A stretch of 64,000 bases of DNA from Anisakis pegreffii (lineage: Eukaryota; Nematoda; Chromadorea; Rhabditida; Anisakidae): the NCBI GenBank assembly GCA_035041965.1, contig JAPYMA010003061.1, positions 115,095-179,094 on the forward strand. The letters run 5' to 3'. How positions within the stretch are numbered: the stretch's first letter is position 1; the number at the start of each line of letters is the position of its first letter. Under the pieces are notes generated by a model. It was not told the DNA's origin and made no database searches. It saw nothing but the letters and a program-made list of their open reading frames with translations. This document shows, piece by piece, positions 25,943 to 44,616 of the stretch. Made by a program: the position numbers and the translations under genes.

Positions 25943-26044
25943 AAATGTTTTTGCAAGTTTCTGACATGGTTGAAGTAATTTTTAATGTAAGCTGCCTCCA
26001 TGTAACATTGTATCCGTAATACACGTGGAACTAAGATCGGATGT

Positions 26045-26130
26045 GCCCCATTGGCGCAGTCGGTTAGCGCGTCGTACTTATAAGTGAATGAGAGATGCGA
26101 AGGTCAGCAGTTCGAGCCTGCTATGGGGCA
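26045..26130 (+). tRNA. tRNA-Ile (UAU)
   Basis: Copy 51; identical body, last complete copy. Confidence 0.9.
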
Positions 26131-26233
26131 AAATCTTTTCGCAAAATTTCTGACATGGTTAAAGTAATTTTTATTGTAATCTGCTTCCGAGTAATATTGT
26201 ATCCGTAATACCCGTGGAACTAAGATCGGATGT

Positions 26234-26292
26234 GCCCCATTGGCGCAGTCGGTTAGCGCGTCGTACTTATAAGTGAATGAGAGATGCGAAGG
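26234..26292 (+). tRNA. tRNA-Ile (UAU), cut by assembly gap
   Basis: Copy 52; consensus up to the variable loop, then the run of N begins. Confidence 0.85.
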
Positions 26293-26392
26293 NNNNNNNN
26301 NNNNNNNNNNNNNNNNNNNNNNNNNNNNNNNNNNNNNNNNNNNNNNNNNNNNNNNNNNNNNNNNNNNNNNNNNNNNNNNNNNNNNNNNNNNN
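26293..26392. other. assembly gap, 100 N
   Basis: The round length suggests a placeholder of unknown size. The base after it (26393) is not array sequence, so the unresolved part of the array lies inside the gap. Confidence 0.95.
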
Positions 26393-29470: not shown

Positions 29471-30100
29471 TGTCGCGATTATCGCGATATTAAATGGAGG
29501 ATTGTGATTGATTACTATAGATCAGAGATTATCTCTGTTTTATAAAGTTATTTGGGATCAACACCGACAAATGAAGATCATAAATCACGGCAGTGTTCAA
29601 TGATCACGACAGAGGCTATCTTCACATAAAATATGGCTATCAAAATCACGAATAAAATGGAACAACTGGGCTAAAATAAGATAATGGCAATGCACTCTTC
29701 ATCAGAGATCACTACAACCCCGATAAGTTCAGCTTTTACTTATGGATCAAAAACCACCACGCCTATCATCCCGAAGTATAAAAGGATGAAGTTGGGGCGA
29801 CATCTTCATTTGTGATCTTATTATTTTTTCAGTGTTCAATAACTTTTAATTAATTTGTCATCATTGCTATCGTTATTATTATCATTGTTATGCTTATTAT
29901 TATTCCGTAAACGATTATTCTTTAATAACATTATTATTATTGTTATTGATTATTACTGATAATTATTGTTATCTTATAGTTGATATGATATGATCGCTAT
30001 TAATTAACGTTATTATTGTATGCATGGTTTAATTACCCAAGTTTGAGGTAATTGACTAATAAACAATTGTTGACAACTCGACAATTCGTCACACCGACAC
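29471..30100. other. AT-rich flank of the tRNA-Ser array
   Basis: 29840-30020 is dominated by ATT/TTA-type simple sequence. No gene is seen. Confidence 0.5.
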
Positions 30101-30123
30101 CTCAACCACTCGCACATCGCTGC
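30101..30123 (-). pseudogene. tRNA-Ser 5' fragment at the array edge
   Basis: It matches the first 23 bases of the array tRNA-Ser with two changes and is followed by array spacer on the plus-strand right side. The rest of the gene is absent. Confidence 0.7.
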
Positions 30124-30203
30124 GACATTTTAATGATAAATTCGCTTCGTGAAAGGATTTCTCTAATCCCAGAAAACTAAAAAGTTCCCTCCCCAAAAAT
30201 CCA

Positions 30204-30285
30204 CGCAGCGAGCAGGATTCGAACCTGCGCGGGCAGAGCCCATTTGATTTCGAGTCAAACTCCTTAACCACTCGGACATCGCTGC
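30204..30285 (-). tRNA. tRNA-Ser (CGA)
   Basis: Copy 1; consensus body, T5 three to five bases past the 3' end. Confidence 0.9.
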
Positions 30286-30366
30286 GACATTATAATGATA
30301 AATGCGCTCTGTGAAAGCATTTCCCCAATCCTGGGAACACTAAAGAGATCCCTCGCTAAAAAGCTA

Positions 30367-30448
30367 CGCAGCGAGCAGGATTCGAACCTGCGCGGGCAGA
30401 GCCCATTTGATTTCTAGTCAAACTCCTTAACCACTCGGACATCGCTGC
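30367..30448 (-). tRNA. tRNA-Ser (AGA)
   Basis: Copy 2; third-type spacer on its 5' side. Confidence 0.9.
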
Positions 30449-30529
30449 TGGTATAAATCCTGCTGCACGATATTTATGCTGTTACGTTTAAGCTGTAAGG
30501 AGTTAACGTTCTGTAGGTGAAAAATTTTT

Positions 30530-30611
30530 CGCAGCGAGCAGGATTCGAACCTGCGCGGGCAGAGCCCATTTGATTTCGAGTCAAACTCCTTAACCACTCG
30601 GACATCGCTGC
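30530..30611 (-). tRNA. tRNA-Ser (CGA)
   Basis: Copy 3; third-type spacer supplies its T5 terminator. Confidence 0.9.
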
Positions 30612-30693
30612 GATATTATAATGATAAATGCGCTCTGTGAAAGGATTTCTCTAATCCTGGGAACACTAAAAAGTTCCCCCCCCTAAAAAGCTA

Positions 30694-30775
30694 CGCAGCG
30701 AGCAGGATTCGAACCTGCGCGGGCAGAGCCCATTTGATTTCGAGTCAAACTCCTTAACCACTCGGACATCGCTGC
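30694..30775 (-). tRNA. tRNA-Ser (CGA)
   Basis: Copy 4; second CGA in a row. Confidence 0.9.
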
Positions 30776-30856
30776 GACATTATAATGATAAATGCGCTCT
30801 GTGAAAGCATTTCCCCAATCCTGGGAACACTAAAGAGATCCCTCGCTAAAAAGCTA

Positions 30857-30938
30857 CGCAGCGAGCAGGATTCGAACCTGCGCGGGCAGAGCCCATTTGA
30901 TTTCTAGTCAAACTCCTTAACCACTCGGACATCGCTGC
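30857..30938 (-). tRNA. tRNA-Ser (AGA)
   Basis: Copy 5. Confidence 0.9.
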
Positions 30939-31019
30939 GATATTATAATGATAAATGCGCTCTGTGAAAGGATTTCTCTAATCCTGGGAACACTAAAGAG
31001 TTCCCCCCCTAAAAAGCTA

Positions 31020-31101
31020 CGCAGCGAGCAGGATTCGAACCTGCGCGGGCAGAGCCCATTTGATTTCGAGTCAAACTCCTTAACCACTCGGACATCGCTG
31101 C
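31020..31101 (-). tRNA. tRNA-Ser (CGA)
   Basis: Copy 6. Confidence 0.9.
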
Positions 31102-31182
31102 GACATTATAATGATAAATGCGCTCTGTGAAAGCATTTCCCCAATCCTGGGAACACTAAAGAGATCCCTCGCTAAAAAGCTA

Positions 31183-31264
31183 CGCAGCGAGCAGGATTCG
31201 AACCTGCGCGGGCAGAGCCCATTTGATTTCTAGTCAAACTCCTTAACCACTCGGACATCGCTGC
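31183..31264 (-). tRNA. tRNA-Ser (AGA)
   Basis: Copy 7. Confidence 0.9.
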
Positions 31265-31344
31265 GATATTATAATGATAAATGCGCTCTGTGAAAGGATT
31301 TCTCTAATCCTGGGAACACTAAAAAGTTCCCCCCTAAAAAGCTA

Positions 31345-31426
31345 CGCAGCGAGCAGGATTCGAACCTGCGCGGGCAGAGCCCATTTGATTTCGAGTCAAA
31401 CTCCTTAACCACTCGGACATCGCTGC
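31345..31426 (-). tRNA. tRNA-Ser (CGA)
   Basis: Copy 8. Confidence 0.9.
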
Positions 31427-31507
31427 GACATTATAATGATAAATGCGCTCTGTGAAAGCATTTCTCCAATCCTGGGAACACTAAAGAGATCCCTCGCTAA
31501 AAAGCTA

Positions 31508-31589
31508 CGCAGCGAGCAGGATTCGAACCTGCGCGGGCAGAGCCCATTTGATTTCGAGTCAAACTCCTTAACCACTCGGACATCGCTGC
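31508..31589 (-). tRNA. tRNA-Ser (CGA)
   Basis: Copy 9; CGA in a position where spacer type predicts AGA. Confidence 0.9.
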
Positions 31590-31670
31590 GATATTATAAT
31601 GATAAATGCGCTCTGTGAAAGGATTTCTCTAATCCTGGGAACACTAAAAAGTTCCCCCCCTAAAAAGCTA

Positions 31671-31752
31671 CGCAGCGAGCAGGATTCGAACCTGCGCGGG
31701 CAGAGCCCATTTGATTTCGAGTCAAACTCCTTAACCACTCGGACATCGCTGC
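31671..31752 (-). tRNA. tRNA-Ser (CGA)
   Basis: Copy 10. Confidence 0.9.
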
Positions 31753-31833
31753 GACATTATAATGATAAATGCGCTCTGTGAAAGCATTTCCCCAATCCTG
31801 GGAACACTAAAGAGATCCCTCGCTAAAAAGCTA

Positions 31834-31915
31834 CGCAGCGAGCAGGATTCGAACCTGCGCGGGCAGAGCCCATTTGATTTCTAGTCAAACTCCTTAACCA
31901 CTCGGACATCGCTGC
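31834..31915 (-). tRNA. tRNA-Ser (AGA)
   Basis: Copy 11; third-type spacer 5'. Confidence 0.9.
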
Positions 31916-31996
31916 TGGTATAAATCCTGCTGCACGATATTTATGCTGTTACGTTTAAGCTGTAAGGAGTTAACGTTCTGTAGGTGAAAAATTTTT

Positions 31997-32078
31997 CGCA
32001 GCGAGCAGGATTCGAACCTGCGCGGGCAGAGCCCATTTGATTTCTAGTCAAACTCCTTAACCACTCGGACATCGCTGC
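31997..32078 (-). tRNA. tRNA-Ser (AGA)
   Basis: Copy 12; AGA directly after AGA. Confidence 0.9.
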
Positions 32079-32159
32079 GATATTATAATGATAAATGCGC
32101 TCTGTGAAAGGATTTCTCTAATCCTGGGAACACTAAAAAGTTCCCCCCCTAAAAAGCTA

Positions 32160-32241
32160 CGCAGCGAGCAGGATTCGAACCTGCGCGGGCAGAGCCCATT
32201 TGATTTCGAGTCAAACTCCTTAACCACTCGGACATCGCTGC
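32160..32241 (-). tRNA. tRNA-Ser (CGA)
   Basis: Copy 13; start of a long regular alternating run. Confidence 0.9.
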
Positions 32242-32322
32242 GACATTATAATGATAAATGCGCTCTGTGAAAGCATTTCCCCAATCCTGGGAACACTAAA
32301 GAGATCCCTCGCTAAAAAGCTA

Positions 32323-32404
32323 CGCAGCGAGCAGGATTCGAACCTGCGCGGGCAGAGCCCATTTGATTTCTAGTCAAACTCCTTAACCACTCGGACATCG
32401 CTGC
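32323..32404 (-). tRNA. tRNA-Ser (AGA)
   Basis: Copy 14. Confidence 0.9.
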
Positions 32405-32484
32405 GATATTATAATGATAAATGCGCTCTGTGAAAGGATTTCTCTAATCCTGGGAACACTAAAAAGTTCCCCCCTAAAAAGCTA

Positions 32485-32566
32485 CGCAGCGAGCAGGATT
32501 CGAACCTGCGCGGGCAGAGCCCATTTGATTTCGAGTCAAACTCCTTAACCACTCGGACATCGCTGC
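32485..32566 (-). tRNA. tRNA-Ser (CGA)
   Basis: Copy 15. Confidence 0.9.
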
Positions 32567-32647
32567 GACATTATAATGATAAATGCGCTCTGTGAAAGCA
32601 TTTCCCCAATCCTGGGAACACTAAAGAGATCCCTCGCTAAAAAGCTA

Positions 32648-32729
32648 CGCAGCGAGCAGGATTCGAACCTGCGCGGGCAGAGCCCATTTGATTTCTAGTC
32701 AAACTCCTTAACCACTCGGACATCGCTGC
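32648..32729 (-). tRNA. tRNA-Ser (AGA)
   Basis: Copy 16. Confidence 0.9.
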
Positions 32730-32809
32730 GATATTATAATGATAAATGCGCTCTGTGAAAGGATTTCTCTAATCCTGGGAACACTAAAAAGTTCCCCCCT
32801 AAAAAGCTA

Positions 32810-32891
32810 CGCAGCGAGCAGGATTCGAACCTGCGCGGGCAGAGCCCATTTGATTTCGAGTCAAACTCCTTAACCACTCGGACATCGCTGC
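32810..32891 (-). tRNA. tRNA-Ser (CGA)
   Basis: Copy 17. Confidence 0.9.
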
Positions 32892-32972
32892 GACATTATA
32901 ATGATAAATGCGCTCTGTGAAAGCATTTCCCCAATCCTGGGAACACTAAAGAGATCCCTCGCTAAAAAGCTA

Positions 32973-33054
32973 CGCAGCGAGCAGGATTCGAACCTGCGCG
33001 GGCAGAGCCCATTTGATTTCTAGTCAAACTCCTTAACCACTCGGACATCGCTGC
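32973..33054 (-). tRNA. tRNA-Ser (AGA)
   Basis: Copy 18. Confidence 0.9.
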
Positions 33055-33134
33055 GATATTATAATGATAAATGCGCTCTGTGAAAGGATTTCTCTAATCC
33101 TGGGAACACTAAAAAGTTCCCCCCTAAAAAGCTA

Positions 33135-33216
33135 CGCAGCGAGCAGGATTCGAACCTGCGCGGGCAGAGCCCATTTGATTTCGAGTCAAACTCCTTAACC
33201 ACTCGGACATCGCTGC
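33135..33216 (-). tRNA. tRNA-Ser (CGA)
   Basis: Copy 19. Confidence 0.9.
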
Positions 33217-33297
33217 GACATTATAATGATAAATGCGCTCTGTGAAAGCATTTCCCCAATCCTGGGAACACTAAAGAGATCCCTCGCTAAAAAGCTA

Positions 33298-33379
33298 CGC
33301 AGCGAGCAGGATTCGAACCTGCGCGGGCAGAGCCCATTTGATTTCTAGTCAAACTCCTTAACCACTCGGACATCGCTGC
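33298..33379 (-). tRNA. tRNA-Ser (AGA)
   Basis: Copy 20. Confidence 0.9.
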
Positions 33380-33460
33380 GATATTATAATGATAAATGCG
33401 CTCTGTGAAAGGATCTCTCTAATCCTGGGAACACTAAAAAGTTCCCCCCCTAAAAAGCTA

Positions 33461-33542
33461 CGCAGCGAGCAGGATTCGAACCTGCGCGGGCAGAGCCCAT
33501 TTGATTTCGAGTCAAACTCCTTAACCACTCGGACATCGCTGC
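33461..33542 (-). tRNA. tRNA-Ser (CGA)
   Basis: Copy 21. Confidence 0.9.
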
Positions 33543-33623
33543 GACATTATAATGATAAATGCGCTCTGTGAAAGCATTTCCCCAATCCTGGGAACACTAA
33601 AGAGATCCCTCGCTAAAAAGCTA

Positions 33624-33705
33624 CGCAGCGAGCAGGATTCGAACCTGCGCGGGCAGAGCCCATTTGATTTCTAATCAAACTCCTTAACCACTCGGACATC
33701 GCTGC
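33624..33705 (-). tRNA. tRNA-Ser (AGA), U32 variant
   Basis: Copy 22; base 32 is T instead of C (loop TTAGAAA). Confidence 0.88.
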
Positions 33706-33789
33706 GATATTATAATGATAAATGCGCTCTGTGAAAGGATCTCTCTAATCCTGGGAACACTAAAAAGTTCCCCCCCCCCTAAAAAGCTA

Positions 33790-33871
33790 CGCAGCGAGCA
33801 GGATTCGAACCTGCGTGGGCAGAGCCCATTTGATTTCGAGTCAAACTCCTTAACCACTCGGACATCGCTGC
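33790..33871 (-). tRNA. tRNA-Ser (CGA)
   Basis: Copy 23; one G-to-A change at the variable arm/T-stem junction; expanded poly-C in the spacer. Confidence 0.85.
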
Positions 33872-33952
33872 GACATTATAATGATAAATGCGCTCTGTGA
33901 AAGCATTTCCCCAATCCTGGGAACACTAAAGAGATCCCTCGCTAAAAAGCTA

Positions 33953-34034
33953 CGCAGCGAGCAGGATTCGAACCTGCGCGGGCAGAGCCCATTTGATTTC
34001 TAATCAAACTCCTTAACCACTCGGACATCGCTGC
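33953..34034 (-). tRNA. tRNA-Ser (AGA), U32 variant
   Basis: Copy 24; loop TTAGAAA. Confidence 0.88.
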
Positions 34035-34114
34035 GATATTATAATGATAAATGCGCTCTGTGAAAGGATCTCTCTAATCCTGGGAACACTAAAAAGTTCC
34101 CCCCTAAAAAGCTA

Positions 34115-34196
34115 CGCAGCGAGCAGGATTCGAACCTGCGCGGGCAGAGCCCATTTGATTTCGAGTCAAACTCCTTAACCACTCGGACATCGCTGC
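34115..34196 (-). tRNA. tRNA-Ser (CGA)
   Basis: Copy 25. Confidence 0.9.
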
Positions 34197-34277
34197 GACA
34201 TTATAATGATAAATGCGCTCTGTGAAAGCATTTCCCCAATCCTGGGAACACTAAAGAGATCCCTCGCTAAAAAGCTA

Positions 34278-34359
34278 CGCAGCGAGCAGGATTCGAACCT
34301 GCGCGGGCAGAGCCCATTTGATTTCTAGTCAAACTCCTTAACCACTCGGACATCGCTGC
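34278..34359 (-). tRNA. tRNA-Ser (AGA)
   Basis: Copy 26; its 5' spacer has several private changes. Confidence 0.9.
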
Positions 34360-34439
34360 GATATTATAGTGATCAATGCACTCTATGAAAGGATTTCTGT
34401 AATCCTGGGAACACTAAAAGTTCCCCCCCTAAAAAGCTA

Positions 34440-34521
34440 CGCAGCGAGCAGGATTCGAACCTGCGCGGGCAGAGCCCATTTGATTTCGAGTCAAACTCCT
34501 TAACCACTCGGACATCGCTGC
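34440..34521 (-). tRNA. tRNA-Ser (CGA)
   Basis: Copy 27. Confidence 0.9.
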
Positions 34522-34602
34522 GACATTATAATGATAAATGCGCTCTGTGAAAGCATTTCCCCAATCCTGGGAACACTAAAGAGATCCCTCGCTAAAAAGC
34601 TA

Positions 34603-34684
34603 CGCAGCGAGCAGGATTCGAACCTGCGCGGGCAGAGCCCATTTGATTTCTAGTCAAACTCCTTAACCACTCGGACATCGCTGC
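34603..34684 (-). tRNA. tRNA-Ser (AGA)
   Basis: Copy 28. Confidence 0.9.
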
Positions 34685-34765
34685 GATATTATAATGATAA
34701 ATGCGCTCTGTGAAAGGATTTCTCTAATCCTGGGAACACTAAAAAGTTCCCCCCCTAAAAAGCTA

Positions 34766-34847
34766 CGCAGCGAGCAGGATTCGAACCTGCGCGGGCAGAG
34801 CCCATTTGATTTCGAGTCAAACTCCTTAACCACTCGGACATCGCTGC
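34766..34847 (-). tRNA. tRNA-Ser (CGA)
   Basis: Copy 29. Confidence 0.9.
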
Positions 34848-34928
34848 GACATTATAATGATAAATGCGCTCTGTGAAAGCATTTCCCCAATCCTGGGAAC
34901 ACTAAAGAGATCCCTCGCTAAAAAGCTA

Positions 34929-35010
34929 CGCAGCGAGCAGGATTCGAACCTGCGCGGGCAGAGCCCATTTGATTTCTAGTCAAACTCCTTAACCACTCGG
35001 ACATCGCTGC
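34929..35010 (-). tRNA. tRNA-Ser (AGA)
   Basis: Copy 30. Confidence 0.9.
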
Positions 35011-35090
35011 GATATTATAATGATAAATGCGCTCTGTGAAAGGATTTCTCTAATCCTGGGAACACTAAAAAGTTCCCCCCTAAAAAGCTA

Positions 35091-35172
35091 CGCAGCGAGC
35101 AGGATTCGAACCTGCGCGGGCAGAGCCCATTTGATTTCGAGTCAAACTCCTTAACCACTCGGACATCGCTGC
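35091..35172 (-). tRNA. tRNA-Ser (CGA)
   Basis: Copy 31. Confidence 0.9.
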
Positions 35173-35253
35173 GACATTATAATGATAAATGCGCTCTGTG
35201 AAAGCATTTCCCCAATCCTGGGAACACTAAAGAGATCCCTCGCTAAAAAGCTA

Positions 35254-35335
35254 CGCAGCGAGCAGGATTCGAACCTGCGCGGGCAGAGCCCATTTGATTT
35301 CTAGTCAAACTCCTTAACCACTCGGACATCGCTGC
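35254..35335 (-). tRNA. tRNA-Ser (AGA)
   Basis: Copy 32. Confidence 0.9.
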
Positions 35336-35415
35336 GATATTATAATGATAAATGCGCTCTGTGAAAGGATTTCTCTAATCCTGGGAACACTAAAAAGTTC
35401 CCCCCTAAAAAGCTA

Positions 35416-35497
35416 CGCAGCGAGCAGGATTCGAACCTGCGCGGGCAGAGCCCATTTGATTTCGAGTCAAACTCCTTAACCACTCGGACATCGCTGC
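35416..35497 (-). tRNA. tRNA-Ser (CGA)
   Basis: Copy 33. Confidence 0.9.
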
Positions 35498-35578
35498 GAC
35501 ATTATAATGATAAATGCGCTCTGTGAAAGCATTTCCCCAATCCTGGGAACACTAAAGAGATCCCTCGCTAAAAAGCTA

Positions 35579-35660
35579 CGCAGCGAGCAGGATTCGAACC
35601 TGCGCGGGCAGAGCCCATTTGATTTCTAGTCAAACTCCTTAACCACTCGGACATCGCTGC
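35579..35660 (-). tRNA. tRNA-Ser (AGA)
   Basis: Copy 34. Confidence 0.9.
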
Positions 35661-35741
35661 GATATTATAATGATAAATGCGCTCTGTGAAAGGATTTCTC
35701 TAATCCTGGGAACACTAAAAAGTTCCCCCCCTAAAAAGCTA

Positions 35742-35823
35742 CGCAGCGAGCAGGATTCGAACCTGCGCGGGCAGAGCCCATTTGATTTCGAGTCAAACTC
35801 CTTAACCACTCGGACATCGCTGC
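35742..35823 (-). tRNA. tRNA-Ser (CGA)
   Basis: Copy 35. Confidence 0.9.
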
Positions 35824-35904
35824 GACATTATAATGATAAATGCGCTCTGTGAAAGCATTTCCCCAATCCTGGGAACACTAAAGAGATCCCTCGCTAAAAA
35901 GCTA

Positions 35905-35986
35905 CGCAGCGAGCAGGATTCGAACCTGCGCGGGCAGAGCCCATTTGATTTCTAGTCAAACTCCTTAACCACTCGGACATCGCTGC
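35905..35986 (-). tRNA. tRNA-Ser (AGA)
   Basis: Copy 36. Confidence 0.9.
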
Positions 35987-36069
35987 GATATTATAATGAT
36001 AAATGCGCTCTGTGAAAGGATTTCTCTAATCCTGGGAACACTAAAAAGTCCCCCCCCCCTAAAAAGCTA

Positions 36070-36151
36070 CGCAGCGAGCAGGATTCGAACCTGCGCGGGC
36101 AGAGCCCATTTGATTTCGAGTCAAACTCCTTAACCACTCGGACATCGCTGG
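36070..36151 (-). tRNA. tRNA-Ser (CGA), base 1 changed
   Basis: Copy 37; base 1 is C instead of G, breaking the first acceptor pair. Confidence 0.75.
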
Positions 36152-36232
36152 GACATTATAATGATAAATGCGCTCTGTGAAAGCATTTCCCCAATCCTGG
36201 GAACACTAAAGAGATCCCTCGCTAAAAAGCTA

Positions 36233-36314
36233 CGCAGCGAGCAGGATTCGAACCTGCGCGGGCAGAGCCCATTTGATTTCTAATCAAACTCCTTAACCAC
36301 TCGGACATCGCTGC
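36233..36314 (-). tRNA. tRNA-Ser (AGA), U32 variant
   Basis: Copy 38; loop TTAGAAA. Confidence 0.88.
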
Positions 36315-36394
36315 GATATTATAATGATAAATGCGCTCTGTGAAAGGATCTCTCTAATCCTGGGAACACTAAAAAGTTCCCCCCTAAAAAGCTA

Positions 36395-36476
36395 CGCAGC
36401 GAGCAGGATTCGAACCTGCGCGGGCAGAGCCCATTTGATTTCGAGTCAAACTCCTTAACCACTCGGACATCGCTGC
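36395..36476 (-). tRNA. tRNA-Ser (CGA)
   Basis: Copy 39. Confidence 0.9.
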
Positions 36477-36557
36477 GACATTATAATGATAAATGCGCTC
36501 TGTGAAAGCATTTCCCCAATCCTGGGAACACTAAAGAGATCCCTCGCTAAAAAGCTA

Positions 36558-36639
36558 CGCAGCGAGCAGGATTCGAACCTGCGCGGGCAGAGCCCATTTG
36601 ATTTCTAATCAAACTCCTTAACCACTCGGACATCGCTGC
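36558..36639 (-). tRNA. tRNA-Ser (AGA), U32 variant
   Basis: Copy 40; loop TTAGAAA. Confidence 0.88.
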
Positions 36640-36719
36640 GATATTATAATGATAAATGCGCTCTGTGAAAGGATCTCTCTAATCCTGGGAACACTAAAAA
36701 GTTCCCCCCTAAAAAGCTA

Positions 36720-36801
36720 CGCAGCGAGCAGGATTCGAACCTGCGCGGGCAGAGCCCATTTGATTTCGAGTCAAACTCCTTAACCACTCGGACATCGCTG
36801 C
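36720..36801 (-). tRNA. tRNA-Ser (CGA)
   Basis: Copy 41. Confidence 0.9.
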
Positions 36802-36882
36802 GACATTATAATGATAAATGCGCTCTGTGAAAGCATTTCCCCAATCCTGGGAACACTAAAGAGATCCCTCGCTAAAAAGCTA

Positions 36883-36964
36883 CGCAGCGAGCAGGATTCG
36901 AACCTGCGCGGGCAGAGCCCATTTGATTTCTAATCAAACTCCTTAACCACTCGGACATCGCTGC
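36883..36964 (-). tRNA. tRNA-Ser (AGA), U32 variant
   Basis: Copy 42; loop TTAGAAA. Confidence 0.88.
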
Positions 36965-37044
36965 GATATTATAATGATAAATGCGCTCTGTGAAAGGATC
37001 TCTCTAATCCTGGGAACACTAAAAAGTTCCCCCCTAAAAAGCTA

Positions 37045-37126
37045 CGCAGCGAGCAGGATTCGAACCTGCGCGGGCAGAGCCCATTTGATTTCGAGTCAAA
37101 CTCCTTAACCACTCGGACATCGCTGC
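37045..37126 (-). tRNA. tRNA-Ser (CGA)
   Basis: Copy 43. Confidence 0.9.
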
Positions 37127-37207
37127 GACATTATAATGATAAATGCGCTCTGTGAAAGCATTTCCCCAATCCTGGGAACACTAAAGAGATCCCTCGCTAA
37201 AAAGCTA

Positions 37208-37289
37208 CGCAGCGAGCAGGATTCGAACCTGCGCGGGCAGAGCCCATTTGATTTCTAGTCAAACTCCTTAACCACTCGGACATCGCTGC
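37208..37289 (-). tRNA. tRNA-Ser (AGA)
   Basis: Copy 44. Confidence 0.9.
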
Positions 37290-37369
37290 GATATTATAAT
37301 GATAAATGCGCTCTGTGAAAGGATTTCTCTAATCCTGGGAACACTAAAAAGTTCCCCCCTAAAAAGCTA

Positions 37370-37451
37370 CGCAGCGAGCAGGATTCGAACCTGCGCGGGC
37401 AGAGCCCATTTGATTTCGAGTCAAACTCCTTAACCACTCGGACATCGCTGC
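37370..37451 (-). tRNA. tRNA-Ser (CGA)
   Basis: Copy 45. Confidence 0.9.
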
Positions 37452-37532
37452 GACATTATAATGATAAATGCGCTCTGTGAAAGCATTTCCCCAATCCTGG
37501 GAACACTAAAGAGATCCCTCGCTAAAAAGCTA

Positions 37533-37614
37533 CGCAGCGAGCAGGATTCGAACCTGCGCGGGCAGAGCCCATTTGATTTCTAATCAAACTCCTTAACCAC
37601 TCGGACATCGCTGC
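37533..37614 (-). tRNA. tRNA-Ser (AGA), U32 variant
   Basis: Copy 46; loop TTAGAAA. Confidence 0.88.
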
Positions 37615-37694
37615 GATATTATAATGATAAATGCGCTCTGTGAAAGGATTTCTCTAATCCTGGGAACACTAAAAAGTTCCCCCCTAAAAAGCTA

Positions 37695-37776
37695 CGCAGC
37701 GAGCAGGATTCGAACCTGCGCGGGCAGAGCCCATTTGATTTCGAGTCAAACTCCTTAACCACTCGGACATCGCTGC
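37695..37776 (-). tRNA. tRNA-Ser (CGA)
   Basis: Copy 47. Confidence 0.9.
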
Positions 37777-37857
37777 GACATTATAATGATAAATGCGCTC
37801 TGTGAAAGCATTTCCCCAATCCTGGGAACACTAAAGAGATCCCTCGCTAAAAAGCTA

Positions 37858-37939
37858 CGCAGCGAGCAGGATTCGAACCTGCGCGGGCAGAGCCCATTTG
37901 ATTTCTAGTCAAACTCCTTAACCACTCGGACATCGCTGC
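37858..37939 (-). tRNA. tRNA-Ser (AGA)
   Basis: Copy 48. Confidence 0.9.
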
Positions 37940-38020
37940 GATATTATAATGATAAATGCGCTCTGTGAAAGGATTTCTCTAATCCTGGGAACACTAAAAA
38001 GTTCCCCCCCTAAAAAGCTA

Positions 38021-38102
38021 CGCAGCGAGCAGGATTCGAACCTGCGCGGGCAGAGCCCATTTGATTTCGAGTCAAACTCCTTAACCACTCGGACATCGCT
38101 GC
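38021..38102 (-). tRNA. tRNA-Ser (CGA)
   Basis: Copy 49. Confidence 0.9.
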
Positions 38103-38183
38103 GACATTATAATGATAAATGCGCTCTGTGAAAGCATTTCCCCAATCCTGGGAACACTAAAGAGATCCCTCGCTAAAAAGCTA

Positions 38184-38265
38184 CGCAGCGAGCAGGATTC
38201 GAACCTGCGCGGGCAGAGCCCATTTGATTTCTAGTCAAACTCCTTAACCACTCGGACATCGCTGC
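38184..38265 (-). tRNA. tRNA-Ser (AGA)
   Basis: Copy 50. Confidence 0.9.
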
Positions 38266-38346
38266 GATATTATAATGATAAATGCGCTCTGTGAAAGGAT
38301 TTCTCTAATCCTGGGAACACTAAAAAGTTCCCCCCCTAAAAAGCTA

Positions 38347-38428
38347 CGCAGCGAGCAGGATTCGAACCTGCGCGGGCAGAGCCCATTTGATTTCGAGTCA
38401 AACTCCTTAACCACTCGGACATCGCTGC
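38347..38428 (-). tRNA. tRNA-Ser (CGA)
   Basis: Copy 51. Confidence 0.9.
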
Positions 38429-38509
38429 GACATTATAATGATAAATGCGCTCTGTGAAAGCATTTCCCCAATCCTGGGAACACTAAAGAGATCCCTCGCT
38501 AAAAAGCTA

Positions 38510-38591
38510 CGCAGCGAGCAGGATTCGAACCTGCGCGGGCAGAGCCCATTTGATTTCTAGTCAAACTCCTTAACCACTCGGACATCGCTGC
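38510..38591 (-). tRNA. tRNA-Ser (AGA)
   Basis: Copy 52. Confidence 0.9.
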
Positions 38592-38671
38592 GATATTATA
38601 ATGATAAATGCGCTCTGTGAAAGGATTTCTCTAATCCTGGGAACACTAAAAAGTTCCCCCCTAAAAAGCTA

Positions 38672-38753
38672 CGCAGCGAGCAGGATTCGAACCTGCGCGG
38701 GCAGAGCCCATTTGATTTCGAGTCAAACTCCTTAACCACTCGGACATCGCTGC
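38672..38753 (-). tRNA. tRNA-Ser (CGA)
   Basis: Copy 53. Confidence 0.9.
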
Positions 38754-38834
38754 GACATTATAATGATAAATGCGCTCTGTGAAAGCATTTCCCCAATCCT
38801 GGGAACACTAAAGAGATCCCTCGCTAAAAAGCTA

Positions 38835-38916
38835 CGCAGCGAGCAGGATTCGAACCTGCGCGGGCAGAGCCCATTTGATTTCTAATCAAACTCCTTAACC
38901 ACTCGGACATCGCTGC
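38835..38916 (-). tRNA. tRNA-Ser (AGA), U32 variant
   Basis: Copy 54; loop TTAGAAA, last copy with this change. Confidence 0.88.
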
Positions 38917-38997
38917 GATATTATAATGATAAATGCGCTCTGTGAAAGGATTTCTCTAATCCTGGGAACACTAAAAAGTTCCCCCCCTAAAAAGCTA

Positions 38998-39079
38998 CGC
39001 AGCGAGCAGGATTCGAACCTGCGCGGGCAGAGCCCATTTGATTTCGAGTCAAACTCCTTAACCACTCGGACATCGCTGC
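38998..39079 (-). tRNA. tRNA-Ser (CGA)
   Basis: Copy 55. Confidence 0.9.
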
Positions 39080-39160
39080 GACATTATAATGATAAATGCG
39101 CTCTGTGAAAGCATTTCCCCAATCCTGGGAACACTAAAGAGATCCCTCGCTAAAAAGCTA

Positions 39161-39242
39161 CGCAGCGAGCAGGATTCGAACCTGCGCGGGCAGAGCCCAT
39201 TTGATTTCTAGTCAAACTCCTTAACCACTCGGACATCGCTGC
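39161..39242 (-). tRNA. tRNA-Ser (AGA)
   Basis: Copy 56. Confidence 0.9.
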
Positions 39243-39323
39243 GATATTATAATGATAAATGCGCTCTGTGAAAGGATTTCTCTAATCCTGGGAACACTAA
39301 AAAGTTCCCCCCCTAAAAAGCTA

Positions 39324-39405
39324 CGCAGCGAGCAGGATTCGAACCTGCGCGGGCAGAGCCCATTTGATTTCGAGTCAAACTCCTTAACCACTCGGACATC
39401 GCTGC
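39324..39405 (-). tRNA. tRNA-Ser (CGA)
   Basis: Copy 57. Confidence 0.9.
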
Positions 39406-39486
39406 GACATTATAATGATAAATGCGCTCTGTGAAAGCATTTCCCCAATCCTGGGAACACTAAAGAGATCCCTCGCTAAAAAGCTA

Positions 39487-39568
39487 CGCAGCGAGCAGGA
39501 TTCGAACCTGCGCGGGCAGAGCCCATTTGATTTCTAGTCAAACTCCTTAACCACTCGGACATCGCTGC
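39487..39568 (-). tRNA. tRNA-Ser (AGA)
   Basis: Copy 58. Confidence 0.9.
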
Positions 39569-39649
39569 GATATTATAATGATAAATGCGCTCTGTGAAAG
39601 GATTTCTCTAATCCTGGGAACACTAAAAAGTTCCCCCCCTAAAAAGCTA

Positions 39650-39731
39650 CGCAGCGAGCAGGATTCGAACCTGCGCGGGCAGAGCCCATTTGATTTCGAG
39701 TCAAACTCCTTAACCACTCGGACATCGCTGC
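39650..39731 (-). tRNA. tRNA-Ser (CGA)
   Basis: Copy 59; last of the regular alternating run. Confidence 0.9.
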
Positions 39732-39812
39732 GACATTATAATGATAAATGCGCTCTGTGAAAGGATTTCTCTAATCCTGGGAACACTAAAGAGTTCCCTC
39801 GCTAAAAAGCTA

Positions 39813-39894
39813 CGCAGCGAGCAGGATTCGAACCTGCGCGGGCAGAGCCCATTTGATTTCGAGTCAAACTCCTTAACCACTCGGACATCGCTGC
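39813..39894 (-). tRNA. tRNA-Ser (CGA)
   Basis: Copy 60; flanked by hybrid spacers, breaks the alternation. Confidence 0.9.
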
Positions 39895-39975
39895 GACATT
39901 ATAATGATAAATGCGCTCTGTGAAAGCATTTCCCCAATCCTGGGAACACTAAAGAGATCCCTCGCTAAAAAGCTA

Positions 39976-40057
39976 CGCAGCGAGCAGGATTCGAACCTGC
40001 GCGGGCAGAGCCCATTTGATTTCTAGTCAAACTCCTTAACCACTCGGACATCGCTGC
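39976..40057 (-). tRNA. tRNA-Ser (AGA)
   Basis: Copy 61; third-type spacer 5'. Confidence 0.9.
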
Positions 40058-40138
40058 TGGTATAAATCCTGCTGCACGATATTTATGCTGTTACGTTTAA
40101 GCTGTAAGGAGTTAACGTTCTGTAGGTGAAAAATTTTT

Positions 40139-40220
40139 CGCAGCGAGCAGGATTCGAACCTGCGCGGGCAGAGCCCATTTGATTTCTAGTCAAACTCCTT
40201 AACCACTCGGACATCGCTGC
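40139..40220 (-). tRNA. tRNA-Ser (AGA)
   Basis: Copy 62. Confidence 0.9.
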
Positions 40221-40301
40221 GATATTATAATGATAAATGCGCTCTGTGAAAGGATTTCTCTAATCCTGGGAACACTAAAAAGTTCCCCCCCTAAAAAGCT
40301 A

Positions 40302-40383
40302 CGCAGCGAGCAGGATTCGAACCTGCGCGGGCAGAGCCCATTTGATTTCGAGTCAAACTCCTTAACCACTCGGACATCGCTGC
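40302..40383 (-). tRNA. tRNA-Ser (CGA)
   Basis: Copy 63. Confidence 0.9.
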
Positions 40384-40464
40384 GATATTATAATGATAAA
40401 TGCGCTCTGTGAAAGGATTTCTCTAATCCTGGGAACACTAAAAAGTTCCCCCCCTAAAAAGCTA

Positions 40465-40546
40465 CGCAGCGAGCAGGATTCGAACCTGCGCGGGCAGAGC
40501 CCATTTGATTTCGAGTCAAACTCCTTAACCACTCGGACATCGCTGC
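40465..40546 (-). tRNA. tRNA-Ser (CGA)
   Basis: Copy 64. Confidence 0.9.
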
Positions 40547-40627
40547 GATATTATAATGATAAATGCGCTCTGTGAAAGGATTTCTCTAATCCTGGGAACA
40601 CTAAAGAGATCCCTCGCTAAAAAGCTA

Positions 40628-40709
40628 CGCAGCGAGCAGGATTCGAACCTGCGCGGGCAGAGCCCATTTGATTTCTAGTCAAACTCCTTAACCACTCGGA
40701 CATCGCTGC
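40628..40709 (-). tRNA. tRNA-Ser (AGA)
   Basis: Copy 65; third-type spacer 5'. Confidence 0.9.
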
Positions 40710-40790
40710 TGGTATAAATCCTGCTGCACGATATTTATGCTGTTACGTTTAAGCTGTAAGGAGTTAACGTTCTGTAGGTGAAAAATTTTT

Positions 40791-40872
40791 CGCAGCGAGC
40801 AGGATTCGAACCTGCGCGGGCAGAGCCCATTTGATTTCGAGTCAAACTCCTTAACCACTCGGACATCGCTGC
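40791..40872 (-). tRNA. tRNA-Ser (CGA)
   Basis: Copy 66. Confidence 0.9.
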
Positions 40873-40954
40873 GATATTATAGTGATCAATGCGCTCTATG
40901 AAAGGATTTCTCTAATCCTGGGAACACTAAAAAGTTCCCCTCCCTAAAAAGCTA

Positions 40955-41036
40955 CGCAGCGAGCAGGATTCGAACCTACGCGGGCAGAGCCCATTTGATT
41001 TCTAGTCAAACTCCTTAACCACTCGGACATCGCTGC
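40955..41036 (-). tRNA. tRNA-Ser (AGA)
   Basis: Copy 67; T-stem C to T leaving a G-U pair; third-type spacer 5'. Confidence 0.85.
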
Positions 41037-41117
41037 TGGTATAAATCCTGCTGCACGATATTTATGCTGTTACGTTTATGCTGTAAGGAGTTAACGTTCT
41101 GTAGGTGAAAAATTTTT

Positions 41118-41199
41118 CGCAGCGAGCAGGATTCGAACCTGCGCGGGCAGAGCCCATTTGATTTCGAGTCAAACTCCTTAACCACTCGGACATCGCTGC
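41118..41199 (-). tRNA. tRNA-Ser (CGA)
   Basis: Copy 68. Confidence 0.9.
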
Positions 41200-41280
41200 G
41201 ATATTATAATGATAAATGCGCTCTGTGAAAGGATTTCTCTAATCCTGGGAACACTAAAAAGTTCCCCCCCTAAAAAGCTA

Positions 41281-41362
41281 CGCAGCGAGCAGGATTCGAA
41301 CCTGCGCGGGCAGAGCCCATTTGATTTCGAGTCAAACTCCTTAACCACTCGGACATCGCTGC
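41281..41362 (-). tRNA. tRNA-Ser (CGA)
   Basis: Copy 69. Confidence 0.9.
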
Positions 41363-41443
41363 GACATTATAATGATAAATGCGCTCTGTGAAAGCATTTC
41401 CCCAATCCTGGGAACACTAAAGAGATCCCTCGCTAAAAAGCTA

Positions 41444-41525
41444 CGCAGCGAGCAGGATTCGAACCTGCGCGGGCAGAGCCCATTTGATTTCTAGTCAAAC
41501 TCCTTAACCACTCGGACATCGCTGC
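41444..41525 (-). tRNA. tRNA-Ser (AGA)
   Basis: Copy 70; third-type spacer 5'. Confidence 0.9.
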
Positions 41526-41606
41526 TGGTATAAATCCTGCTGCACGATATTTATGCTGTTACGTTTAAGCTGTAAGGAGTTAACGTTCTGTAGGTGAAAA
41601 ATTTTT

Positions 41607-41688
41607 CGCAGCGAGCAGGATTCGAACCTGCGCGGGCAGAGCCCATTTGATTTCGAGTCAAACTCCTTAACCACTCGGACATCGCTGC
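41607..41688 (-). tRNA. tRNA-Ser (CGA)
   Basis: Copy 71. Confidence 0.9.
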
Positions 41689-41768
41689 GATATTATAATG
41701 ATAAATGCGCTCTGTGAAAGGATTTCTCTAATCCTGGGAACACTAAAAAGTTCCCCCCTAAAAATCTA

Positions 41769-41850
41769 CGCAGCGAGCAGGATTCGAACCTGCGCGGGCA
41801 GAGCCCATTTGATTTCGAGTCAAACTCCTTAACCACTCGGACATCGCTGC
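41769..41850 (-). tRNA. tRNA-Ser (CGA)
   Basis: Copy 72. Confidence 0.9.
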
Positions 41851-41931
41851 GACATTATAATGATAAATGCGCTCTGTGAAAGCATTTCTCCAATCCTGGG
41901 AACACTAAAGAGATCCCTCGCTAAAAAGCTA

Positions 41932-42013
41932 CGCAGCGAGCAGGATTCGAACCTGCGCGGGCAGAGCCCATTTGATTTCTAGTCAAACTCCTTAACCACT
42001 CGGACATCGCTGC
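41932..42013 (-). tRNA. tRNA-Ser (AGA)
   Basis: Copy 73. Confidence 0.9.
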
Positions 42014-42093
42014 GATATTATAATGATAAATGCGCTCTGTGAAAGGATTTCTCTAATCCTGGGAACACTAAAAAGTTCCCCCCTAAAAAGCTA

Positions 42094-42175
42094 CGCAGCG
42101 AGCAGGATTCGAACCTGCGCGGGCAGAGCCCATTTGATTTCGAGTCAAACTCCTTAACCACTCGGACATCGCTGC
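42094..42175 (-). tRNA. tRNA-Ser (CGA)
   Basis: Copy 74. Confidence 0.9.
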
Positions 42176-42256
42176 GACATTATAATGATAAATGCGCTCT
42201 GTGAAAGCATTTCCCCAATCCTGGGAACACTAAAGAGATCCCTCGCTAAAAAGCTA

Positions 42257-42338
42257 CGCAGCGAGCAGGATTCGAACCTGCGCGGGCAGAGCCCATTTGA
42301 TTTCGAGTCAAACTCCTTAACCACTCGGACATCGCTGC
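42257..42338 (-). tRNA. tRNA-Ser (CGA)
   Basis: Copy 75; private changes in its 5' spacer (ATGTTTTTATG). Confidence 0.9.
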
Positions 42339-42419
42339 GATGTTTTTATGATAAATGCGCTCTGTGAAAGGATTTCTCTAATCCTGGGAATACTAAAAAG
42401 TTCCCTCGCTAAAAAGCTA

Positions 42420-42501
42420 CGCAGCGAGCAGGATTCGAACCTGCGCGGGCAGAGCCCATTTGATTTCTAGTCAAACTCCTTAACCACTCGGACATCGCTG
42501 C
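42420..42501 (-). tRNA. tRNA-Ser (AGA)
   Basis: Copy 76; third-type spacer 5'. Confidence 0.9.
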
Positions 42502-42582
42502 TGGTATAAATCCTGCTGCACGATATTTATGCTGTTACGTTTAAGCTGTAAGGAGTTAACGTTCTGTAGGTGAAAAATTTTT

Positions 42583-42664
42583 CGCAGCGAGCAGGATTCG
42601 AACCTGCGCGGGCAGAGCCCATTTGATTTCGAGTCAAACTCCTTAACCACTCGGACATCGCTGC
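42583..42664 (-). tRNA. tRNA-Ser (CGA)
   Basis: Copy 77. Confidence 0.9.
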
Positions 42665-42745
42665 GATATTATAATGATAAATGCGCTCTGTGAAAGGATT
42701 TCTCTAATCCTGGGAACACTAAAAAGTTCCCCCCCTAAAAAGCTA

Positions 42746-42827
42746 CGCAGCGAGCAGGATTCGAACCTGCGCGGGCAGAGCCCATTTGATTTCTAGTCAA
42801 ACTCCTTAACCACTCGGACATCGCTGC
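42746..42827 (-). tRNA. tRNA-Ser (AGA)
   Basis: Copy 78; third-type spacer 5'. Confidence 0.9.
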
Positions 42828-42908
42828 TGGTATAAATCCTGCTGCACGATATTTATGCTGTTACGTTTAAGCTGTAAGGAGTTAACGTTCTGTAGGTGAA
42901 AAATTTTT

Positions 42909-42990
42909 CGCAGCGAGCAGGATTCGAACCTGCGCGGGCAGAGCCCATTTGATTTCTAGTCAAACTCCTTAACCACTCGGACATCGCTGC
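42909..42990 (-). tRNA. tRNA-Ser (AGA)
   Basis: Copy 79. Confidence 0.9.
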
Positions 42991-43071
42991 GATATTATAA
43001 TGATAAATGCGCTCTGTGAAAGGATTTCTCTAATCCTGGGAACACTAAAAAGTTCCCCCCCTAAAAAGCTA

Positions 43072-43153
43072 CGCAGCGAGCAGGATTCGAACCTGCGCGG
43101 GCAGAGCCCATTTGATTTCGAGTCAAACTCCTTAACCACTCGGACATCGCTGC
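43072..43153 (-). tRNA. tRNA-Ser (CGA)
   Basis: Copy 80. Confidence 0.9.
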
Positions 43154-43234
43154 GACATTATAATGATAAATGCGCTCTGTGAAAGCATTTCCCCAATCCT
43201 GGGAACACTAAAGAGATCCCTCGCTAAAAAGCTA

Positions 43235-43316
43235 CGCAGCGAGCAGGATTCGAACCTGCGCGGGCAGAGCCCATTTGATTTCTAGTCAAACTCCTTAACC
43301 ACTCGGACATCGCTGC
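43235..43316 (-). tRNA. tRNA-Ser (AGA)
   Basis: Copy 81; third-type spacer 5'. Confidence 0.9.
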
Positions 43317-43397
43317 TGGTATAAATCCTGCTGCACGATATTTATGCTGTTACGTTTAAGCTGTAAGGAGTTAACGTTCTGTAGGTGAAAAATTTTT

Positions 43398-43479
43398 CGC
43401 AGCGAGCAGGATTCGAACCTGCGCGGGCAGAGCCCATTTGATTTCGAGTCAAACTCCTTAACCACTCGGACATCGCTGC
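43398..43479 (-). tRNA. tRNA-Ser (CGA)
   Basis: Copy 82. Confidence 0.9.
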
Positions 43480-43560
43480 GATATTATAATGATAAATGCG
43501 CTCTGTGAAAGGATTTCTCTAATCCTGGGAACACTAAAGAGTTCCCTCGCTAAAAAGCTA

Positions 43561-43642
43561 CGCAGCGAGCAGGATTCGAACCTGCGCGGGCAGAGCCCAT
43601 TTGATTTCGAGTCAAACTCCTTAACCACTCGGACATCGCTGC
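43561..43642 (-). tRNA. tRNA-Ser (CGA)
   Basis: Copy 83; last complete copy before the gap. Confidence 0.9.
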
Positions 43643-43701
43643 GATATTATAATGATAAATGCGCTCTGTGAAAGGATTTCTCTAATCCTGGGAACACTAA
43701 A

Positions 43702-43801
43702 NNNNNNNNNNNNNNNNNNNNNNNNNNNNNNNNNNNNNNNNNNNNNNNNNNNNNNNNNNNNNNNNNNNNNNNNNNNNNNNNNNNNNNNNNNNNNNNNNNN
43801 N
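43702..43801. other. assembly gap, 100 N
   Basis: The gap sits inside array sequence: spacer precedes it and a diverged spacer follows. Copy number beyond it is unknown. Confidence 0.95.
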
Positions 43802-43864
43802 AATGCGCCTGCGAAAGGATTTCTCCAATCCTGGGAACACTAAAAGTTCCCCCCTGTAAAGCTA

Positions 43865-43916
43865 CGCAGCTAGCAGGATTCGAACCTGCGCGGGCAGAGC
43901 CCATTTGATTTCTAGT
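43865..43916 (-). pseudogene. truncated tRNA-Ser (AGA) at the right array edge
   Basis: It retains the 3' half (acceptor strand with one change, T-arm, variable arm, anticodon loop). The 5' half is replaced by short duplications of GTGCCCATTT. Confidence 0.85.
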
Positions 43917-43978
43917 GCCCATTTGAAGTGCCCATTTCTAGTGCCCATTTCTAGTGCACGCGGGCAGAGCCCATTTGA
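43907..43978. repeat. micro-duplications of a tRNA-Ser fragment
   Basis: The phrase GCCCATTT(CTAGT) recurs four to five times, ending with a second copy of CGCGGGCAGAGCCCATTTGA. It derives from the variable arm and anticodon arm of the neighbouring tRNA, as if by slippage or patchy repair. Confidence 0.75.
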
Positions 43979-44616
43979 AACGGCAAATTCTCACGGGAAG
44001 ACACTAAGACAATAACTATAACATGGCTTAGGTAAAAACTAGATTTCCACATTTTCACAGAAACGGAACTGCTAAAAGAACTTCTTTTTGTTGTCACCAT
44101 TTCTCTTAGCTTACCATGTTATCAAACTGTCTGTAATGTAGGAACGACAGTTTAAGAATGACGACACTTCTACTTCATTTGATCGCTTTTCGTCTCCGAA
44201 ACGCCTTATTTACAGTAAGATTGAAAGAACGAAATACTGAGAAACACTATAAGGTATGCTACAGACAACATGATGAAGTGATTCATCCTCATTGAATAAA
44301 TGCTCTCGCAACTTCTAAATTACTTTCCGTTTAGCCGTTCCTCTGTTTTACGATCTACATAAAATAGTTACCAGTAATGAACAATTTTTGGCTGGTACAT
44401 CAGGAAAAGATGCAATAGTAATTATTATCACAAGTGCTACGTTCCTCATTTTCACATAATTTCGATGTTCATTTATCCTCAACGGTAATTCCAATTCGTT
44501 TTTATATCATTTCATTTGGTTTATTGTTTACCATTGACAACCAAATTTTTTCGAGGATCACTTCAAACTCGAATAAATTCACATCAAAACCGAAGATGAA
44601 AAGAAGATGAACATAC
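43979..44616. other. non-coding stretch right of the array
   Basis: I see nothing that can be supported as a gene. Confidence 0.4.

Follow-up and report, generated by a model that had tools for sequence, protein, structure and literature searches.

How do tRNA-Ser genes of two anticodons come to alternate gene by gene along a tandem array, and what keeps both anticodons there? The question is raised by a 64,000-nucleotide stretch of Anisakis pegreffii DNA (hereafter the window; positions 115,095 to 179,094 of contig JAPYMA010003061.1, assembly GCA_035041965.1) that carries 83 serine tRNA genes in one array. The alternating two-anticodon array is a genuine observation, and its central block is a two-gene higher-order repeat in which each anticodon has its own spacer. 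From sequence comparison, we consider it probable that this is a genuine multi-copy tRNA-Ser locus, predicted to be functional, whose copies would be kept uniform by unequal exchange and conversion and whose alternation would be a by-product of the amplification of a dimer. The array and its parts are listed below, with C and A for CGA and AGA genes and S1 to S3 for spacer types.

30204..43642, minus strand: tandem tRNA-Ser array of 83 genes, 45 CGA and 38 AGA (ARAGORN, Rfam, repeat reading).
31997..39731, minus strand: central block of 48 strictly alternating genes, dimer C-S1-A-S2 (units 25-72 in transcription order).
39732..43642, minus strand: 5' outer part, with irregular order, three spacer types, C1-C3-A2 trimers and mixed S1/S2 spacers (units 1-24 in transcription order).
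30204..31996, minus strand: 3' outer part, with irregular order (units 73-83 in transcription order).
30093..30203 (limits approximate), minus strand: last spacer and degenerate partial gene at the 3' end of the array.
43702..43801, unstranded: assembly gap of exactly 100 N within the Ser array, near its 5' end.
43802..43995 (end approximate), minus strand: degenerate terminal unit, an S1-like spacer piece and a broken AGA-like gene.
48735..48805, minus strand: stray AGA-like tRNA-Ser with a shortened T arm, a probable pseudogene (33.6 bits, gathering cut-off 29).

ARAGORN called 83 tRNA-Ser genes, all on the minus strand (30203-43643), and each scored 55.4-62.6 bits against Rfam RF00005 (cut-off 29). 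Thus all 83 genes have a tRNA fold and a serine anticodon, which base 34 makes CGA in 45 and AGA in 38. The unit of about 163 bp consists of an 82 bp gene and an 80-84 bp spacer. When bases 32 and 34 are left out, the tRNA bodies are identical in 80 of the 83 genes and the other three carry one private change apiece, which bears out the count, the anticodon split and the single shared body given in an initial annotation of the window. T occurs at base 32 in seven AGA copies, all within the central block. A run of at least four T residues, the terminator of RNA polymerase III, lies within 15 bp 3' of every gene. Folds of single sequences gave the cloverleaf only in part and were not used. Both ends of the array bear degenerate partial units; the S1-like piece at 43802..43995 is 89% identical over 66 aligned positions, and the broken gene there, beside the gap, shows 13-bp duplications of a piece of the anticodon loop. 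Because a 100-N gap touches the array, 83 genes is a lower bound.

A pattern search of the genome (122.66 Mb, 1740 contigs) gave 121 serine matches (100 listed), at least 27 of them in a Ser(UGA) array on another contig; by our count, 84 of the 88 matches on the reverse strand are the window's 83 genes and the stray copy. The array does not fit a family of tRNA-derived short interspersed elements, as its copies stand head to tail and are not scattered over the genome.

Strict alternation of CGA and AGA extends over 48 genes at most, copies 12-59 in plus-strand order; the alternation noticed in the initial annotation is therefore present, with its start at copy 12 instead of 13. Neighbours differ in anticodon in 70 of the 82 pairs of the array. 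Neither value was reached in any of 100,000 shuffles, in which the longest alternation was 21 genes. The 24 CGA:24 AGA composition of the block is inherent in strict alternation. Its 23 dimers measure 325 bp (13 dimers), 326 bp (eight), 328 bp (one) and 329 bp (one), and nine of the 23 are distinct.

Higher-order repeat analysis, which had been suggested as a check, confirmed the two-gene period. Over the whole array the mean divergence fell from 0.1067 between neighbouring units (lag 1) to 0.0545 at lag 2, and none of 5000 shuffles of the order gave a lag-2 value as low. Identical pairs of units made up 24 of 80 at lag 2 versus 1 of 81 at lag 1. Up to lag 30, divergence within the block stayed at about 0.007-0.010 for even lags (0.0068 at lag 2), whereas odd lags gave 0.061-0.063. 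Units two apart are thus closer than neighbours, as expected of a higher-order repeat, strictly so in the central block only. The homogenised dimer of about 326 bp claimed earlier accordingly describes the central 48 genes (325-329 bp) and not the outer 35, which are not dimeric and show three spacer types, three occurrences of a C1-C3-A2 trimer, and S1/S2 mosaic spacers in units 1, 19 and 24 in transcription order.

The spacers account for this arrangement. Three types lie 3' of the Ser genes, S1 (n = 41), S2 (n = 33) and S3 (n = 9). S1 and S2 are homologous, their commonest forms differing at 8 of 81 bases; S3 is a different sequence and forms a separate cluster. Clustering at 4% was discarded, since it merged S1 with S2 and so masked the downstream link (mutual information 0.031 bits; 2460 of 5000 shuffles as high), and the spacer counts given here use a split of S1 and S2 by diagnostic bases. 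Counted over the whole array, 37 CGA genes have S1 on their 3' side, six have S3 and two have S2; among the AGA genes, S2 follows 31, S1 four and S3 three. The next gene is CGA after S2 (33/33), AGA after S3 (9/9), and either AGA (29) or CGA (11) after S1. The last AGA gene of the central block has S3, and the rest of the block reads C-S1-A-S2. At E 0.01, S1-S3 had no match in the other loci fetched, and only the right flank of the window itself matched; repeat analysis reported no short tandem repeats between the Ser genes. The order of the genes is explained by this anatomy, in which spacer types are linked to anticodon in the central block.

Variants within the block indicate how the dimer spreads. 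In the unit before the gene, an S1 variant is present for five of the seven T32 genes versus one of the 17 remaining AGA genes in the block (Fisher p 0.003); in the unit after it, for four of the seven versus two of the 17 (p 0.04). T32 and the neighbouring S1 variants are thus linked, and dimers therefore tend to move as units. We propose that a single C-S1-A-S2 pair, multiplied as a whole, came to fill the centre of the array, from which strict alternation would follow without being selected itself. A C-S1-C-S3-A-S2 trimer that lost one C-S3 unit, perhaps through an exchange inside a gene 5' of base 34, may have given rise to the pair.

Base 59 offers a view of exchange between the two classes. 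C is present at this position in 82 of the 83 array genes, whereas the seven dispersed CGA/AGA genes fetched (four CGA and three AGA, the stray copy 48735-48805 excluded) all have T there. The stray copy itself carries the array form GCAGG, not the GTAGG of the dispersed genes. Since both anticodon classes of the array have C59, either it spread across the classes or one class was born from the other inside the array. Homogenisation appears to have crossed the anticodon classes and to have left base 34 mixed. Unequal exchange and conversion among the copies would keep the tRNA body uniform across both classes, and selection on base 34 may retain both anticodons. In decoding, A34 of an AGA anticodon would be read as inosine, as is general knowledge for codon reading by this base; the worm would need I34 from the AGA genes as well as C34 from the CGA genes, and for that reason base 34 would stay mixed. 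The pair is not the sole reader of UCN codons, as a stretch of 29 Ser(UGA) genes stands in an array of its own. Separately, one CGA and one UGA tRNA-Ser gene stand in tandem outside the arrays, about 100 bp apart (locus L012, contig C800, around 27946-28210, minus strand).

To place the Ser array in its genome, we consider the other large tandem tRNA arrays. Eleven such stretches were read in detail, and the ten besides the Ser array hold 18-56 genes; their copy numbers are lower bounds. The first two lines below refer to the window and the others to contigs elsewhere, under our working labels.

16602..26292, plus strand: tRNA-Ile(UAU) array, 51 full genes and one cut by a gap, with a 12-nt intron (length by eye); 189-bp unit, no dimer.
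26293..26392, unstranded: 100-N gap cutting the tRNA-Ile array.
Contig C190: Ser(UGA) array, 29 genes called.
Contig C309: Arg(UCG) array, 46 genes by seed word, one CCG among them.
Contig C76: Ile(AAU) array, 56 genes.
Contig C41: Glu(CUC) array, 48 genes.
Contig C80: Glu(UUC) array, 55 genes.
Contig C710: Pro(UGG) array, 18 genes.
Contig C1688 (locus L034): mixed Pro array with one shared body, 25 AGG and 20 CGG.
Contig C1331 (locus L035): mixed Leu array with one shared body, 37 AAG and 11 UAG in the stretch read.
C1458:1-6500 (locus L041): mixed Val array with one shared body, 17 AAC, 13 CAC and 7 UAC; 172-bp unit.
C13:39933-53051: second Val stretch, additional to the eleven and judged from the matches listed (100 of 109), among which AAC, CAC and UAC are all present.

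The Ile(UAU) array is oriented opposite to the Ser array. Its extra bases lie at the canonical intron site, so these genes are unlike the nematode type with a V arm described in PMC4300185. A solitary intron-bearing tRNA-Ile(UAU) gene stands on the opposite strand at 15506-15591 (minus), about 1 kb before that array. Of eight family patterns searched, seven matched at least one array; the Ala pattern had no match in the genome, and the Lys(UUU) matches, for which 63 of 7927 candidates were scored, are scattered, some of them in pairs. Further arrays may exist for the Asp/Glu pattern, since 100 of its 162 matches are listed. The first 69 bases of one fetched locus (L015, contig C535) seem to lie inside a tRNA-Glu(UUC) gene, so this contig may be another end of the Glu(UUC) array. 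The two Val stretches, or the Pro genes on C1688 and C956, could each be fragments or allelic copies of a single array.

A comparable dimer was not found by lag analysis in the Ile(UAU), Ser(UGA) or Arg(UCG) arrays. Strict alternation is likewise absent from the mixed Pro and Leu arrays, in which the longest alternating run is seven genes in each; compared with shuffles, their anticodon transition counts gave p 0.16 (Pro) and p 0.025 (Leu). The link of spacer to anticodon is modest in both, with 125 (downstream) and 3 (upstream) of 5000 shuffles as high for Pro, and 3 (downstream) and 320 (upstream) for Leu. In the Val array the order of anticodons is irregular by eye, and a second body variant occurs at base 16. 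Physical pairing of isoacceptors had been called unusual in the initial annotation. Mixing of isoacceptors is not peculiar to serine in this genome, given the Pro, Leu and Val arrays, and alternation in a tRNA cluster has a precedent in the Tyr and Ser genes of plants (PMC11700998); strict alternation is confined to the Ser array among the Ser, Pro and Leu arrays tested. That mixed anticodons are kept across four families is more telling than the alternation.

Diversity in genes and spacers was compared in the same arrays; in most of them the genes were the less diverse, which is a sign of function. For the Ser array (S1 and S2 units, base 34 left out) gene diversity was 0.0032 versus 0.057 for spacers. 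Corresponding values were 0.0040 versus 0.070 for Ile(UAU), 0.0081 versus 0.115 for Arg and 0.0117 versus 0.0283 for Ser(UGA). With all gene sites counted, they were 0.0096 versus 0.096 for Pro and 0.0053 versus 0.112 for Leu (base 34 included in both), 0.0094 versus 0.050 for Glu(UUC) and 0.0005 versus 0.0070 for Ile(AAU). The most variable gene site is base 34 in the Ser (38 of 82 units), Pro (20 of 44) and Leu (10 of 46) arrays. It also leads in the Val array (20 of 38 units), where copies with length changes inflate the minor counts. Tentatively, the four-codon families Ser, Pro, Leu and Val may hold co-arrayed and jointly homogenised isoacceptors with base 34 as the main free site; recombination in the satellite-like arrays would in that case set the cellular ratio of anticodons, and selection on the mix would hold it.

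Several observations weigh against our main explanation, that of a functional locus with a uniform body and both anticodons retained. Genes are not less diverse than spacers in S2 units taken alone (0.0043 versus 0.0015, from one variable column each), and in two arrays of low variation the values hardly differ (0.0049 for genes versus 0.0055 for spacers in Pro(UGG); 0 versus 0.001 in Glu(CUC)). Low gene diversity could also be explained by conversion tracts confined to the genes. Base 34 is not the only variable site: base 16 varies in 14 of 38 Val units, base 32 in 7 of 82 Ser units, two sites in 11 of 52 Glu(UUC) units each and one site in 9 of 44 Arg units, and base 34 was compared with these other positions after the arrays had been seen. 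The Pro and Leu transition counts are near those of shuffled arrays, so nothing there shows that order matters. Finally, each of the eleven array stretches either runs into an N gap or comes to within 300 bp of the end of its contig, and assembly at these places is therefore doubtful.

Could the array instead be a neutral satellite, a tRNA pair caught in tandem amplification with most copies silent, as is reported in most tissues for the Ser-Tyr-Tyr (SYY) cluster of Arabidopsis (PMC12308677)? The 18-83 copies in eleven array stretches and the satellite-like degenerate units at the ends would fit, and both anticodons also have dispersed genes (four CGA and three AGA). On the other hand, genes are more conserved than spacers in those arrays that have enough variation, and terminators lie 3' of all 83 genes. 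We consider this explanation unlikely. Less likely still is that the alternating order itself is selected, as a two-gene unit that holds CGA and AGA at 1:1 at any copy number. Such adaptive pairing is consistent with the ratio of 45:38 overall and 24:24 in the block, the latter by construction, and with the low divergence at even lags within the block (0.0068 at lag 2). However, any amplified dimer yields alternation without selection, and the Pro and Leu arrays mix anticodons without strict alternation, as does the Val array in an order irregular by eye. That the assembler made the alternating order or the copy number is very improbable, for although 100-N gaps touch both arrays of the window and the nine other array stretches all come to within 300 bp of where their contigs end, each anticodon of the block has its own spacer, so that two kinds of unit exist, nine distinct dimers occur among the 23, and merging of two haplotypes would not be expected to give alternation over 48 units. 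A genuine multi-copy locus with an amplified dimer at its centre thus remains our preferred reading.

Other features were observed in the window and the genome. The open frame at 58627-59067 (plus strand) encodes a Mos1-type transposase helix-turn-helix domain (Pfam HTH_48). Part of the frame at 10328-10879 (plus strand) resembles a beta-N-acetylhexosaminidase whose structure is known (E 3e-6), with no Pfam match. Open frames of 110 codons or more numbered 74 in the fetched DNA; of the 20 scanned, five matched a Pfam family, one of them below the curated cut-off. Genes for the spliced-leader RNA SL1 scored above the Rfam cut-off, mostly in tandem, on contigs C14, C181 and C1485, with units of about 552-560 bp, and the same search was positive in none of 14 prokaryote control genomes. 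SL1 being an RNA of nematodes, this agrees with a nematode genome. A search for COX1 gave frames interrupted by stops.

Large tRNA arrays have been described in other organisms. Almost all tRNA genes of Entamoeba histolytica are arrayed, in units of up to five tRNA genes, and the intergenic sequence differs between species that share a unit organisation (PMC2652664). As in Entamoeba, many tRNA families stand in tandem here, and one unit may carry several tRNA genes. Unlike Entamoeba, this is an animal genome with some dispersed genes, and its units hold one gene or are mixes of isoacceptors differing at base 34. Short repeats lie between the genes in E. histolytica and E. dispar (PMC2652664); between the Ser genes here, repeat analysis reported none. 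The SYY cluster of Arabidopsis is given as 27 three-gene Tyr-Tyr-Ser repeats and described as an alternation of Tyr with Ser genes, and plant Pro and Ile clusters of 25-28 repeats are known (PMC11700998); most tissues do not express SYY, which is active in cells of the root cap (PMC12308677). Like these plant clusters, the Ser array is long, has a repeating or alternating order, a similar number of genes, and variable flanks around a core that grew by tandem duplication. SYY joins different tRNAs for two amino acids, whereas here isoacceptors one base apart are joined, in several families of one genome. Clusters of fifty and more tRNA genes, as seen here, are also known from animals, in Nematostella and teleosts (PMC2888827). 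In the portion of that paper drawn on, neither an alternating isoacceptor unit nor a nematode cluster of such size is described.

The change at base 34 also has precedents. In a survey of isoacceptor shifts with nematodes among its taxa, 39 of 44 changed the first anticodon base (PMC3923123), and further accounts of such shifts and of tRNA remolding are available (PMC4981973, PMC7919458). As in the present arrays, Ser, Pro and Leu each show at least one shift without linked changes in the body (PMC3923123, PMC4981973). Those studies compare orthologues between species, whereas here both states lie side by side in dozens of homogenised copies. A search of the literature, thin on subscription journals and thus a weak negative, found neither an alternating array of isoacceptor tRNA genes nor large tRNA arrays in nematodes. 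Serine tRNA genes of pombe are reportedly kept alike by conversion, to judge by the title of a 1985 report by Amstutz; unlike those three unlinked genes, the genes described here form a tandem array. Large tRNA arrays, even alternating ones, and higher-order repeats are thus already known; the parts of the present locus are ordinary and their combination is uncommon. What sets it apart is the co-arraying of isoacceptors that differ only at the wobble base, once as an alternating dimer, in an animal whose genome holds many arrays of this sort.

Concerted evolution has been described for paralogous tRNA genes that share one anticodon (PMC4981973). In A. pegreffii it appears to act across anticodons, with the wobble base left mixed. 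In C. elegans, tRNA genes of identical sequence can be expressed differently (PMC4999229), so the spacers of the array may matter as well. Since C59 in the array and T59 in the dispersed genes mark the tRNA made by the array, whether it is expressed or silent is directly answerable by tRNA sequencing. Concerted evolution across anticodons makes the array a natural test case for the setting and maintenance of isoacceptor ratios.

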